Virus record (IMG/VR): IMGVR_UViG_3300025120_000736
Coordinates: 1 to 20,354 of that record
Reading direction: 5' to 3' (one strand)
DNA length: 20,354 bases
Source of the DNA: a virus
Below are positions 10,828 to 14,592 of the stretch, one piece after another. The notes under the pieces were generated by a model. The model searched no databases. It was not told the DNA's origin and saw only the letters and a program-made list of their open reading frames with translations. The translations under genes and the position numbers were made by a program. Within the stretch, counting starts at the first letter, position 1; each line of letters starts with the position of its first letter.

Positions 10828-10835
10828 TATTTATA
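10828..10835 (-). promoter_or_regulatory. Late promoter TATAAATA for the 2033-aa gene unit
   Basis: An exact match to the T4 late consensus TATAAATA lies on the minus strand, 27 nt before the ATG at 10800. The leader reads AACTAACGGACTAATCAGTG and then GTAGAGA-type sequence. A second, plus-strand late motif lies 16 bp away in the same 83-bp gap. Confidence 0.75.
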
Positions 10836-10851
10836 ATGTCACTTGATGCTT

Positions 10852-10859
10852 GATAAATA
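10852..10859 (+). promoter_or_regulatory. Late promoter GATAAATA for the 112-aa plus-strand gene
   Basis: GATAAATA is followed by ATTTCAAAGGAAAAG and the ATG at 10884, 24 nt after the motif. AAGGA at 10866-10870 serves as the ribosome-binding site. Together with the TATAAATA at 10828-10835 it forms a back-to-back late promoter pair. Confidence 0.65.
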
Positions 10860-10883: not shown

Positions 10884-11222
10884 ATGGCCAAATCTGATAA
10901 GTGGTGCCCATTAATTCAGAAAGATTGTAAAGAACATAAGTGCTCTTGGTATACTCACATTCAAGGAGTAAACCCACAAACTGGTGAGAATATGGACAAA
11001 TGGGGTTGTGCAGTTGAATGGGTTCCAATGCTGCTAGTAGAAAATTCATCCAAGCAACTTTCAACTGCTGCTGCTATTGAATCATTTAGAAATGAAGTTG
11101 TCACTGCAAATCATCAAAATCAACAATTATATGTACATGCCTTAGAGCAGGGGGTTGATGTTGCAAAAGTAACACCAATAAACCCTCCAATGATTGGACC
11201 ACGAATTAACCTGCATCCTTAG
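10884..11222 (+). CDS. Conserved small four-cysteine protein (112 aa)
   Basis: This is the only plus-strand gene supported here. The N-terminal 45 residues contain four cysteines at 8, 15, 20 and 42, arranged WCPLIQKDC, HKCSWY and KWGCAVEW, with NPQTGENMDKWGC before the last. This looks like a small metal-binding or structural knot, though the spacing is not a classical CxxC zinc finger. Residues about 46-90 (PMLLVENSSKQLSTAAAIES, FRNEVVTANHQNQ) are probably helical, and the tail is Pro-rich (INPPMIGPRINLHP). I recall similar small proteins as uncharacterised genes in other marine myoviruses; the function is unknown. It has its own late promoter, a reasonable AAGGA site, and a stop that overlaps the oppositely oriented fibre gene by 17 bp. 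Alternatives are a moron-like accessory gene or a late regulator. Confidence 0.85.
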   Translation: MAKSDKWCPLIQKDCKEHKCSWYTHIQGVNPQTGENMDKWGCAVEWVPMLLVENSSKQLSTAAAIESFRNEVVTANHQNQQLYVHALEQGVDVAKVTPINPPMIGPRINLHP

Positions 11223-14200
11223 TACAAAGAATCATAGCAATATATTTAATATCAAAGTTCATATTAGCTGATGACTCTCCTCTAGAATTAGTAGTAAAAC
11301 TATGCGTATGATTTGAGTTGTTGCCACCAACCTGAATCTTATGATTATGCTGTGAATCTGCATTAGAAAGACTAATGCCTGTGCTGTCTCTCGAAGTTGT
11401 TAACTTCTTGTCGAACGCTTCTACATCACCCTCTCCTGATCTTGATTCTCTTTCAACTCTAGCAGCATTAACATTATGGGCGTGTCCAGGATCTTGAACG
11501 CTGTGCCTGTGATTTCCTCCGCCATCCTTTGTGCCTGCATCATGGACATGGTTTGCACTTTGATCTCCAGTCTTACCATTATGTTCATGTTCTTTCAGGG
11601 GAACACTTCGCTGTGCAAATGTAGTAGTAAATGCCAATGAACCACCAGTTACACCACCGGTTTTCTGGTTAACAACTCTAACAGTAGCATTACCAAATGC
11701 TCCACCTGTTTGTTGTGTCCAACCAACTGGTGCTGATGATTGATAGAACAGCATAGTTGTCCCTGTTGGGAAACTATTAACAGCAAGATCAAAGATTTTT
11801 TTGATGACTCTAGCAGAATATGTCTCACCTACTCCTTTAGAACTGTCTGGTGGGTAATTGTTGTTAAGAAAGGTAATACCTTGTCTTGTGTCTGATGCCT
11901 TATTCAATCTAGCATTATCAACAGTGCCAGAAGTTAGGTTGGTGGCATTTGCAGCATGAATCTTAAGGTCACCTACTGCTTTTTCAGATGCAGCAACTGT
12001 TGCATTTGTCCCATTAATCGAAGGACTTAATGATACAATGCCTTGTAGTGTCAGACTTGCTTTATTCAGTCTATCATTATTGACAGTGCCAGAAGTTAGG
12101 TTGGTGGCATTTGCAGCATGTTTTCTTAGATTATTAGCACCTCTGCCAGTCAATGCAGAGTTATCATCATCTACATTAAATGTTTGAGTATAATCAGTGA
12201 TACCTTGTAATGTATAAGATGCTTTTGGAAGCAAATCAGGATTGATAGGGGTAGTATCAACATAATTCTTTAAGTCACCAACTGCTTTCTCAGATGCAGC
12301 AATAGTTTGACTTGTCCCATTAATAGCATTACTCAGTTGAACAACACCCTGAACAGTGGTAGATGCATCTTGGATGAGGTTAATATTGACCAGACCCTCA
12401 GTAAGGTTAGATGCATTACCTGCATGAGCATTCAGCAATCCAACTGCTCTTTCAGATGCAGCAATAGTTTGACTAGTACCTTCAATACTGTCACTCAGTG
12501 AGACAATACCTTGACCAGTTAGTGATGCTTTAAGCAATCTATCATTATTGACAGTACCATTAGAAAGATTGGATGCATTGTTAGCATGAATCTTAAGGTC
12601 ACCTACTGCTTTTTCAGTAGCAGCAATGTTTTGGCGAGTACCATTAATTGCATTGCTTAATTGAACAACACCTTGTACAAGTAATGTGGCATCTTGAATA
12701 AGGTCAATATTAATAACTTCAGTAGAATTATTGCCAACAATATTTGTGACTCTAATGTTGGTCAACTCATTGCCATTTCCCCTAAAGATTGGAGCAATTA
12801 ATCTGCCAGTTGCTGGATTATAAGTAAAGTGAGTATCATCGGAATCAATATAATGTCTCTGGTAACCAGTTCCATTAGCAGTGGTAAATCCTACCTGATA
12901 GTTCTGATTATTATTTCTCTCATCAACTTTACTGCTATTAGATTTGTCAGCAGTACCCTGTAAGAATGCAAATACTTCAGGAACTGTAAGGTGACCAGTA
13001 TTGGGATTATACTTAAATTGACTGTCTGCTTGAATTCTCTGATTACCAGAAGATGTATTGGTGAAGTTGACAAAATGACCAGCATTTGTGCTTTCATCAT
13101 TTAATATATTAACATTAGTAGCATTAGATGCCTGACCTGTGAAGGTAGCATCAGTACCATCAGTACCATTTTCCAGAATTTTTGATGTATTATTATCTGC
13201 AAAAATATCACCAGTAAATTTGGTTACATTAATGTTTTGGACATTCAGTGTATTGGATGATGGATTATAAGTAAGTTGATTTGAATCACTATCAATTCTG
13301 ACCAACTCATATCCAGTTGCAGAATTGTCACTGAATTGTACTTGGAAGTTATTATTTGATGAGTCCTTTCTTACTTTAACTCTCTCACCACCAGTTGCAA
13401 TACCAGCAAAGTTTCTTGCTGTAAGGGTTTTATTGAGGGGATTATAAGTCAGGTCAAGGTCATCAGTGTCAGTATGTAGTAACTGATAGTTAGACCCAAG
13501 TCCAGTAGCATTAGGAATCTTATCAGTAAATGTAACCTGATATGCTACATTATCATTCTTTTGATGGATACTGACCATGTCAGATCCAGTTGAGACTCCA
13601 ACAAACTTAACAGCAGTTACAATACCAGCACTGACAGTGAAATCAGCATTAGCATCAGAGATGTTGGCAATAGTACCAAATCCAGTTACATTGAGGAAAT
13701 CAAAGTTTGCCTCACTAGCATCAAGATATTGACTAACAGTCGCAAAAGCAACATTAATACTCTTATAGTCATTATTCAGGTAGATTGTACCACCCATACC
13801 CTGCACGTTGGATGCCTGGTAGTACAGAACGTTGGGAGCATTGTATGGAACCTCAAAGGTTACAATACCTACCTGAGCACCATTATTAAAGACACCATTA
13901 TCAAAAAGGTCATTTAGGTTAGCAGTTGGTTCTTTCTTAATGTAGAATGGGAAACCACCAGTGTTTGCTCTGAACTCATATCTCTTACCTCTCAGCAGAT
14001 ATAGTTCAGGGTTTTTAGTTGCCTGAGTAAAACCAATACCAGGTGGGTCACCATCAAGAACAAAGTTAAATTCTTGACCTACTGTTTCTACATCAAATAA
14101 AGTGTAGAGTTTACTATCATTAGAATCTAAACTGTTGGTGACAGTAACATCATTAAAGACAACAGTACCACCAGCAGTAATCTGACCATTCAGATTAGTT

Positions 14201-14592
14201 GCAGTAATATCACCAGTAACTAATAAATCACCGTAAATGTATCCTGCTGTTGTACCAGTGGATACAGGTCCAATAATTTCATGAGTATAGAAAGGAATTG
14301 CTGAGTTAACACCAACTTTCTTGTCAATTACATTGACACTAAGAACTGTGCCACCAATACCTACATCTAGATTTTCTGTGACAGTTGCATAACCACTGAC
14401 TGCAAGGTCAGTGGTGTAAATGGTTGTACCAGCAGATATCTTGGTGCTACCACATATATTTCCTACAACATCTAATTTACATTCAGGAACTGATGTACCA
14501 ATGCCAACCCTGTCAGTAACAGCATCAGCATAAAGTAGGTCCTCATTAACTTCTATGCCATTGCGTATGACAAAATCCTTATCGATACCCAT
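11206..14592 (-). CDS. Tail fibre with phage collar domain and HxH-rich tip (1128 aa)
   Basis: The N-terminus reads MGIDKDFVIRNGIEVNEDLL, then DRVGIGTSVPECKLDVVGNI. Residues about 174-272 form a cupredoxin-like barrel (LYLLRGKRYEFRAN, GGFPFYIKKEP, PNVLYYQASNVQGMGGTIYL). Residues about 345-605 hold four repeats with (Y/F)QVxF...DSDxxxLTYNPxxxxL. Residues about 630-910 hold six fibre repeats of the type KASLTxQGIVSLSxxINGTxxTIAASEKAVGDL, matching the phage tail fibre repeat (PF03406-like). Residues about 935-1000 match the phage tail collar domain (PF07484-like): FPTGTTMLFYQSSAPVGW. The end is His-rich, with six HxH motifs as in the iron-binding tip of T4 gp37, then FDIKYIAMILCTKDAG. It has its own GATAAATA promoter. 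The family assignment is strong. It is probably a host-contacting fibre, but equivalence to T4 gp12 or gp37 cannot be decided from this. Confidence 0.92.
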   Translation of the reverse strand: MGIDKDFVIRNGIEVNEDLLYADAVTDRVGIGTSVPECKLDVVGNICGSTKISAGTTIYTTDLAVSGYATVTENLDVGIGGTVLSVNVIDKKVGVNSAIPFYTHEIIGPVSTGTTAGYIYGDLLVTGDITATNLNGQITAGGTVVFNDVTVTNSLDSNDSKLYTLFDVETVGQEFNFVLDGDPPGIGFTQATKNPELYLLRGKRYEFRANTGGFPFYIKKEPTANLNDLFDNGVFNNGAQVGIVTFEVPYNAPNVLYYQASNVQGMGGTIYLNNDYKSINVAFATVSQYLDASEANFDFLNVTGFGTIANISDANADFTVSAGIVTAVKFVGVSTGSDMVSIHQKNDNVAYQVTFTDKIPNATGLGSNYQLLHTDTDDLDLTYNPLNKTLTARNFAGIATGGERVKVRKDSSNNNFQVQFSDNSATGYELVRIDSDSNQLTYNPSSNTLNVQNINVTKFTGDIFADNNTSKILENGTDGTDATFTGQASNATNVNILNDESTNAGHFVNFTNTSSGNQRIQADSQFKYNPNTGHLTVPEVFAFLQGTADKSNSSKVDERNNNQNYQVGFTTANGTGYQRHYIDSDDTHFTYNPATGRLIAPIFRGNGNELTNIRVTNIVGNNSTEVINIDLIQDATLLVQGVVQLSNAINGTRQNIAATEKAVGDLKIHANNASNLSNGTVNNDRLLKASLTGQGIVSLSDSIEGTSQTIAASERAVGLLNAHAGNASNLTEGLVNINLIQDASTTVQGVVQLSNAINGTSQTIAASEKAVGDLKNYVDTTPINPDLLPKASYTLQGITDYTQTFNVDDDNSALTGRGANNLRKHAANATNLTSGTVNNDRLNKASLTLQGIVSLSPSINGTNATVAASEKAVGDLKIHAANATNLTSGTVDNARLNKASDTRQGITFLNNNYPPDSSKGVGETYSARVIKKIFDLAVNSFPTGTTMLFYQSSAPVGWTQQTGGAFGNATVRVVNQKTGGVTGGSLAFTTTFAQRSVPLKEHEHNGKTGDQSANHVHDAGTKDGGGNHRHSVQDPGHAHNVNAARVERESRSGEGDVEAFDKKLTTSRDSTGISLSNADSQHNHKIQVGGNNSNHTHSFTTNSRGESSANMNFDIKYIAMILCTKDAG
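11302..11589 (-). other. HxH metal-binding tip region of the collar-domain fibre
   Basis: Six His-x-His motifs are encoded: HEH (residue 1002), HVH (1015), HRH (1028), HAH (1037), HNH (1082) and HTH (1095). They are separated by Gly/Asn-rich turns. In T4 gp37 the trimeric tip is a needle holding a line of iron ions between HxH motifs; six motifs here would predict up to six sites in a trimer. Confidence 0.7.
11865..12700 (-). repeat. Six tail-fibre repeats inside the 1128-aa gene
   Basis: Six in-frame units carry variants of KASxTxQGIVxLSxxINGTxxxIAASEKAVGDLK followed by HAANATNLTSGTVNNDRL. DNA identity between units is high in places. A 38-bp sequence is exactly repeated at 11921-11958 and 12083-12120, 162 bp apart. 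Another exact block containing AATCTTAAGGTCACCTACTG recurs near 11958 and 12589. These are possible recombination points for copy-number change. Confidence 0.8.
12775..13555 (-). repeat. Four DSD-YNP fibre repeats inside the 1128-aa gene
   Basis: Four diverged units are seen: AYQVTFTDKI...DLDLTYNPLNKTL, FQVQFSDNSA...NQLTYNPSSNTL, HFVNFTNTSS...QFKYNPNTGHL and YQVGFTTANG...HFTYNPATGRL. Each ends near an F.G type turn. The pattern is typical of shaft repeats in marine phage fibres. Confidence 0.65.

Follow-up and report, generated by a model that had tools for sequence, protein, structure and literature searches.

The window, i.e. the whole stretch of DNA analysed here, is a virus record of 20,354 bases, and its minus strand carries a tail-fibre gene (11206..14592) that encodes a protein of 1128 aa composed of a connector-like N-terminus, fibre repeats, a collar, an HxH needle and a tip. 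Residues 46–272 (13777..14457, minus strand) resemble phrog_677, a baseplate wedge tail fiber protein connector (E 9.7e-16), and the best of four Phage_fiber_2 (PF03406) stretches covers residues 744–771 (12280..12363, minus strand). Toward the C-terminus, all on the minus strand, follow the first part of the collar domain (residues 942–999, 11596..11769, with boundaries set by us), the predicted outgoing needle strand (residues 1000–1039, 11476..11595), a hypervariable apex and putative receptor-contact tip with a presumed boundary (residues ∼1040–1066, 11395..11475), the predicted return strand (residues 1067–1099, 11296..11394) and a closing segment of the collar (residues 1100–1128, 11209..11295). 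On the plus strand, a gene for a protein of 112 aa with four cysteines at C8, C15, C20 and C42 (10884..11222, hereafter Cys4) is convergent with the fibre gene, their ends overlapping by 17 bp. A second fibre of 1642 residues encoded upstream shares 68% identity with its counterpart in the Synechococcus phages S-B43 and RN05-S, so the window phage is regarded as a relative of cyanophages; the RN05-S fibre has six HxH as well. Neither a PDB search with the whole window fibre as a single protein nor a megablast against phages returned a match.

The six HxH motifs listed by the sequence-only reading were found exactly where it had placed them, namely HEH 1002, HVH 1015, HRH 1028, HAH 1037, HNH 1082 and HTH 1095, running from window position 11589 down to 11302, and all 12 His of residues 1002–1097 belong to them. 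Shuffling this 96-residue stretch gave a mean of 1.36 HxH, with at least six in 39 of 100,000 shuffles, and among 5,000 shuffles of the complete protein none had more than five. HxH were also counted in seven other window proteins of the minus strand, of which six had none and one had a single motif. Across the window fibre and 14 chosen close relatives (alignment A2, which omits L028 and L029 with four and five HxH, although both were listed as close), the 12 motif His were all invariant while the middle residues varied, with entropies of 0 versus 2.19 bits. In a wider alignment of 34 sequences, nine motif His were kept in all members, His 1030 in 33, and His 1037 and 1039 of the fourth motif in 23; compared with L001, the window codon for His 1030 has changed only synonymously. 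In the first set of loci, 78 unique C-termini with the collar were compared, each carrying two to nine HxH. The further alignments kept 35 of 57 relatives (A3), 33 of 36 (A4) and 30 of 33 cluster representatives (A6, leaving out L005, L050 and L074).

The same reading had put a collar before the motifs, and here the support was divided: Pfam detected no collar in the window protein and the sequence signal is weak, with 11 of the 36 aligned sequences matching Gp10_C weakly (E between 5.6e-4 at best and 0.1), but the family profile matched the T4 gp37 collar, represented by seven gp37-type proteins, with an hhalign probability of 95.7% (E 9.8e-9, 35 columns). The seven-member alignment was built because a single T4 sequence had given 4.4%, and with T4 the collar alone aligns while the needle does not. 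In T4 gp37, the collar (D10) and needle (D11) are the domains of PDB 2XGF (PMC6116203), seven HxH lie within residues 883–998, and seven irons are held, alanine at H929 or H931 abolishing plaques (PMC6957217). The window fibre shares with gp37 the succession of collar, outgoing strand, apex and return strand, rungs that fit the same 6-residue offset, and a return-minus-outgoing HxH span of 23 residues, whereas it differs in having 4+2 rather than 3+4 motifs, in a needle sequence that cannot be aligned, in being one chain with a connector-like N-terminus, and in its neighbour, which is Cys4 instead of gp38, the two lacking similarity. The closest PDB entry by profile was the long tail fibre 8KEC (E 0.012 with A1, 0.0045 with A2 and 1.2e-4 with A3, the last for the whole sequence versus 0.007 for the best stretch), whose sequence is gp34 of the Anabaena cyanophage A-1(L), a phage with an arm that its authors likened to T4 gp37 (PMC10966104). 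Like the window family, this gp34 (L168:27253-28392) has a DPGHxH ... TGIS turn and a row of HxH (hhalign 83%), and unlike the window it has five HxH that all precede the gap with none after it; in the text of the A-1(L) cryo-EM paper the word ‘histidine’ is absent and ‘iron’ occurs in a reference title only (PMC10966104).

In the architecture proposed here, three identical chains would form the collar, leave it wound around one another as a needle, reverse direction at the apex and return to close the collar. Were each chain to double back in this way, its two strands would have to match in length. A length relation computed first without collar anchors was the weaker one (slopes 0.51, 0.39 and 0.31), and the anchored one computed second related outgoing length to tip-plus-return length with a slope of 0.97 and r of 0.77 in 69 of 79 unique C-termini (10 had no anchors). 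By cluster level the anchored slopes were 0.83 at 70% (n 33), 1.10 at 50% (n 9) and 0.92 at 40% (n 6), and misplaced boundaries would push the relation the opposite way. Single pairs behaved alike: L024 and L026 have an extra 9-residue HxH unit on the outgoing strand and ∼9 more residues on the returning one, and the close relatives L053 and L072 are set apart by a single 7-residue unit per strand, which on the outgoing side (ATNQAQT type) lacks His and on the return side is an HxH unit. Among six relatives of the T4 family, three had matched insertions on both strands, L169 had neither insertion, and L171 and L174 had the outgoing one with no clean counterpart on the return strand.

The spacing of the motifs was then compared between the two strands. 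With the single 6-residue offset that gave the best interleaving, applied to all 17 clusters having at least two HxH per side, a set that replaced a first test on 10 hand-picked patterns, the mean smallest rung distance was 5.76 versus 4.82 (sd 0.22) for permuted return patterns, a value reached by 1 of 1000 permutations (3 of 1000 for 10 distinct patterns). Adding six T4-family sequences gave 5.70 versus 4.21, reached by none of 1000, and the same offset left at least four residues between rungs in all 14 sequences listed, a listing that includes L173, which is absent from the final register test. Judged by sequence only, the features of an antiparallel hairpin, i.e. matching strand lengths and interleaved rungs, are present, and the predicted HxH needle of T4 gp37 type is well supported by conservation, by the pairing of outgoing and return lengths and by a rung register shared with T4. 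The T4-type needle of the earlier reading is retained on these grounds, except that its charged segment is no side insert.

Reading from the collar with the strands alternating, the rungs would come in the order 1002, 1095, 1015, 1082, 1028 and 1037. At each of them, the HxH of three chains would hold one axial metal ion in octahedral coordination by six His, and these metals would most likely keep the three chains aligned with one another as they fold and make the needle more rigid. By analogy with the T4 tip, the window fibre tip is thus envisaged as very probably a thin needle with six predicted metal ions, most likely Fe(II). Two AlphaFold monomer models had low confidence in the needle (pLDDT 62.9 and 57.0, pTM 0.34 and 0.30). 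The earlier suggestion that iron carried by phage tails matters in the ocean, cyanophages included, turned out to be already in print: HxH iron in marine phages, among them cyanophages, is treated in a paper that cites Bonnain 2016 and Bartual 2010 (PMC11705849). Like the window fibre, the tail fibre of the Alteromonas phage R22Y, also marine, has six HxH proposed as iron ligands (PMC11705849); these lie in residues 24–340 of its gp12 (AlphaFold, docking), and the passages on this protein describe no collar-apex-collar hairpin (PMC11705849).

The needle might be correct and its metal in the ocean not be iron, the sites being filled with zinc or nickel or left partly empty, so that no role as an iron carrier would follow. 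The scarcity of iron in open-ocean water counts for this reading. It also gains from T4 gp12, whose HxH holds zinc in the crystal after reconstitution, but the same motif binds iron in gp37, in pyocin fibres and in several spikes (PMC6116203), and we judge the non-iron reading unlikely, with iron the favoured occupant.

The gap between the fourth and fifth HxH measures 45 residues, with four motifs on one side and two on the other, and contains a charged segment at residues 1045–1063 that had been read as an inserted loop projecting from the needle. Both the gap and its charge were confirmed, with 33% charged residues in the window gap versus a mean of 26% in 19 close sequences and 10% in 59 others, but the largest HxH gap across the relatives measured had a mean of 46–48 residues (sd ∼9.5). 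Because relatives keep a similar gap and the segment lies where the T4 chain reverses at the end of its needle, it is assigned to the apex. In T4, the turn stretch is bounded by residues 932–959. The chain there doubles back after H931 and before position 966, where the return motifs begin, and residues between these points bind LPS and OmpC (PMC6957217). A side loop with the fibre end located elsewhere, as the high charge could suggest, appears very unlikely, since the gap is of similar size in most relatives, the lengths of the flanking strands co-vary and T4 turns at the corresponding place. The segment between the fourth motif and the TGI turn was also the most variable, with an entropy of 2.02 bits versus 0.87–1.33 elsewhere in the 15 sequences. 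By analogy with T4, residues ∼1040–1066 most likely form an exposed, fast-varying apex that would touch the cyanobacterial surface, and its hypervariability is compatible with host contact, which can reasonably be presumed. That the HxH-rich repeats have no metal function and represent His stretches of low complexity, as their richness in Gly, Ser, Asn and His might suggest, is scarcely credible given invariant His beside free neighbours and a shared rung register.

Between the window and L001, the ratio of amino-acid to synonymous changes was 37:6 in needle plus tip versus 135:126 in the rest of the gene (p 1e-5), and this excess relative to the remaining gene, in a comparison of two sequences, is the only firm one of the selection signals. 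Positive selection was rejected as a claim, the dN/dS of needle plus tip being 1.7 with a bootstrap range of 0.85–4.7, not significantly above 1, and the dN/dS of 5.8 for the collar was computed on almost no synonymous changes. In the same pair, dS was 0–0.14 in residues 942–1128 versus 0.34 in residues 781–941, and because synonymous divergence drops there, the C-terminus may be a recombinant block or tip cassette. Hypermutation of the retroelement type was dismissed too, with no second copy within the window and no obvious adenine bias.

Searches with Cys4 found no convincing family (best Pfam 0.012, PHROGs 0.016, no PDB match); NCBIfam gave one match, at 0.00024 and from a single member, to a ParA family. 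All 12 phage records found annotate the protein as hypothetical, and the open papers searched contained nothing relevant on the gene, subscription papers lying outside the search. Across 30 members, three of its cysteines never change and the fourth hardly does. A T4-type late-promoter-like box, GATAAATA (10852..10859, plus strand), lies 32 bp upstream of the Cys4 start, and in the 83-bp gap between the gene of a 2033-aa fibre and Cys4, ATAAATA boxes stand back to back at 10828-10835 (minus) and 10852-10859 (plus). We take ATAAATA to be the core of the T4-type late promoter. Being convergent with the fibre gene, Cys4 cannot ride on the fibre transcript, and ATAAATA was present 30–35 bp before the Cys4 start in 23 of 23 distinct convergent stretches (1.34 expected in shuffles), which are related and so do not represent 23 independent events, versus 1 of 47 upstream of same-strand Cys4. 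The box suggests that Cys4 would be expressed late.

The first 165 loci were fetched by the fibre protein and not by Cys4. A Cys4 homologue was found at 114 of 121 loci having the collar by pattern (52 on the same strand and 62 convergent) and at 137 of 144 having it by profile; such genes stand beside collar-needle genes in the window, L010, L030–L088 and L175–L283. Of the seven collar loci without Cys4, six had an unclosed collar frame or less than 110 bp left, and L006 alone had room; in its phage, S-SCSM2R, a homologue was found ∼38 kb from the collar gene. In 131 of the 137 loci, Cys4 adjoined the 3′-end of the fibre gene with −150 to 400 bp between frame ends, and in L055, L074, L140 and L163–L165 it lay 0.5–1.6 kb from the collar. 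Eighteen of the 137 repeat contigs already counted, and 87 distinct collar tails are represented. The remaining 21 of the 165 loci had neither a collar of this type nor Cys4: L003 and L004 end before the tip, and the other 19, of which two repeat the contigs of two others and some have identical ends, carry 5–12 HxH per frame on a different collar type. All 19 have room beyond the gene, 17 of them more than 1.6 kb, and none has Cys4; thus, Cys4 follows the collar type and not the HxH ladder. This other, HxH-rich collar type without Cys4 (L045, L048 and L148–L161) ends in PPYFALAYIMKT or VEPFGFIIKT.

In the reverse test, viral loci were collected by the Cys4 profile, and the best 80 of at least 578 were analysed, 18 of them on contigs of the first set. 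Among these best 80 of at least 578, the collar was adjacent in 65, farther away (up to ∼2 kb) in nine and absent by profile in six; of the 65 adjacent collars, 62 had at least two HxH, two had one, and L220 had none, the middle of its collar frame reading as if out of frame. The six without a collar by profile, again among the best 80 of at least 578, include L205 with a truncated collar and two HxH, and L231, L243 and L245, in which the frame finishes with a single HxH and a closing segment resembling that of the collar. A looser count on the same best 80 of at least 578 found at least two HxH in 62 of 78 Cys4 neighbours versus 47 of 294 other long frames, a count that favours a Cys4–HxH link because the neighbour richest in HxH was chosen. 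Among 26 loci from bacterial or archaeal genomes, the collar was adjacent in 23 and overlapping outside the set limits in two; the remaining locus, L271, had no collar by profile and two HxH in the preceding frame. At L278 the Cys4 gene adjoins a collar that lacks HxH, so the collar can do without metal. No Cys4 gene was found in the T4-type and A-1(L) stretches.

Nine genes next to Cys4 were also tested in the loci without an adjacent collar. Seven (L192, L211, L215, L216, L219, L227 and L241) proved to be 2OG-Fe(II) oxygenases (PF13640) above the Pfam cut-off, and the other two were a phage tail assembly chaperone (PF16778, L189) and a weak JmjC match. An annotated 2OG-Fe(II) oxygenase likewise lies beside or near Cys4 in the isolates P-SSM2 (PiuC), S-SCSM1 and S-SCSM2R, and the open literature searched held nothing on PiuC together with a cyanophage tail fibre. 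A role of these oxygenases in modifying the fibre is possible. Cys4 coexists with genes of the tail assembly chaperone type and with other small genes, which at L189, L263, L275 and L282 lie between collar and Cys4 or next to Cys4: L189 has the chaperone, L263 and L275 have genes of 114–119 aa, and in CRP-361 an annotated tail assembly chaperone follows Cys4.

We regard it as likely that the fibre end is a T4 gp37-like collar and hairpin needle with metal rungs and a variable apex, and that Cys4 is its linked partner. As the partner of one collar type, Cys4 most likely would have a role in assembling that fibre tip, and it may help to build fibres of the window type. The lambda Tfa gene lies next to the 3′-end of its fibre gene. 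T4 gp38 is similarly placed, its gene adjoining the fibre gene 3′-end like that of Cys4, but Cys4 differs from both gp38 and Tfa in its four conserved cysteines and its frequent location on the opposite strand, and hhalign gave a probability of 0.2% between Cys4 and gp38. It is tentatively proposed that Cys4 is a new dedicated tip factor which would fold, assemble or cap the fibres of this collar, in the place of gp38 or Tfa, unrelated to gp38 and expressed late in either orientation.

Cys4 could instead be an unrelated late gene that lies near the fibre solely because tip cassettes recombine as a block. Consistent with that, the S-SCSM2R homologue lies ∼38 kb from its collar gene, and the collar is farther away in nine of the best 80 of at least 578 loci, six of these nine with an oxygenase next to Cys4. 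The linkage, however, recurs in Synechococcus and Prochlorococcus phages and in a Roseobacter phage of the Autographiviridae, in two orientations, as well as in 25 of the 26 bacterial or archaeal genome loci, and the late-promoter-like box precedes Cys4 in 23 of 23 convergent cases, so that we hold this alternative to be doubtful, though a serious one. The four conserved cysteines and the adjacency to HxH fibres would also suit a protein that loads metal into the HxH ladder, but the 19 loci with 5–12 HxH on another collar have no Cys4, L278 has Cys4 beside an HxH-less collar, and the T4-type and A-1(L) stretches are without it. Because HxH needles on other collars have no Cys4, metal loading, previously rated as unlikely, was lowered to highly improbable.

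As regards novelty, the needle adds a further member to an established design and the Cys4 linkage is the new element. The predicted needle extends that design to fibres in cyanophages, in a Roseobacter phage and in genome loci labelled mainly as Proteobacteria. It also suggests a building rule, by which both needle strands grow together, so that the number of metals and the boundaries of the tip would be predictable from sequence. Cys4, for its part, would offer one class of fibre tips, of which many belong to marine phages, a concrete candidate partner that can be tested.
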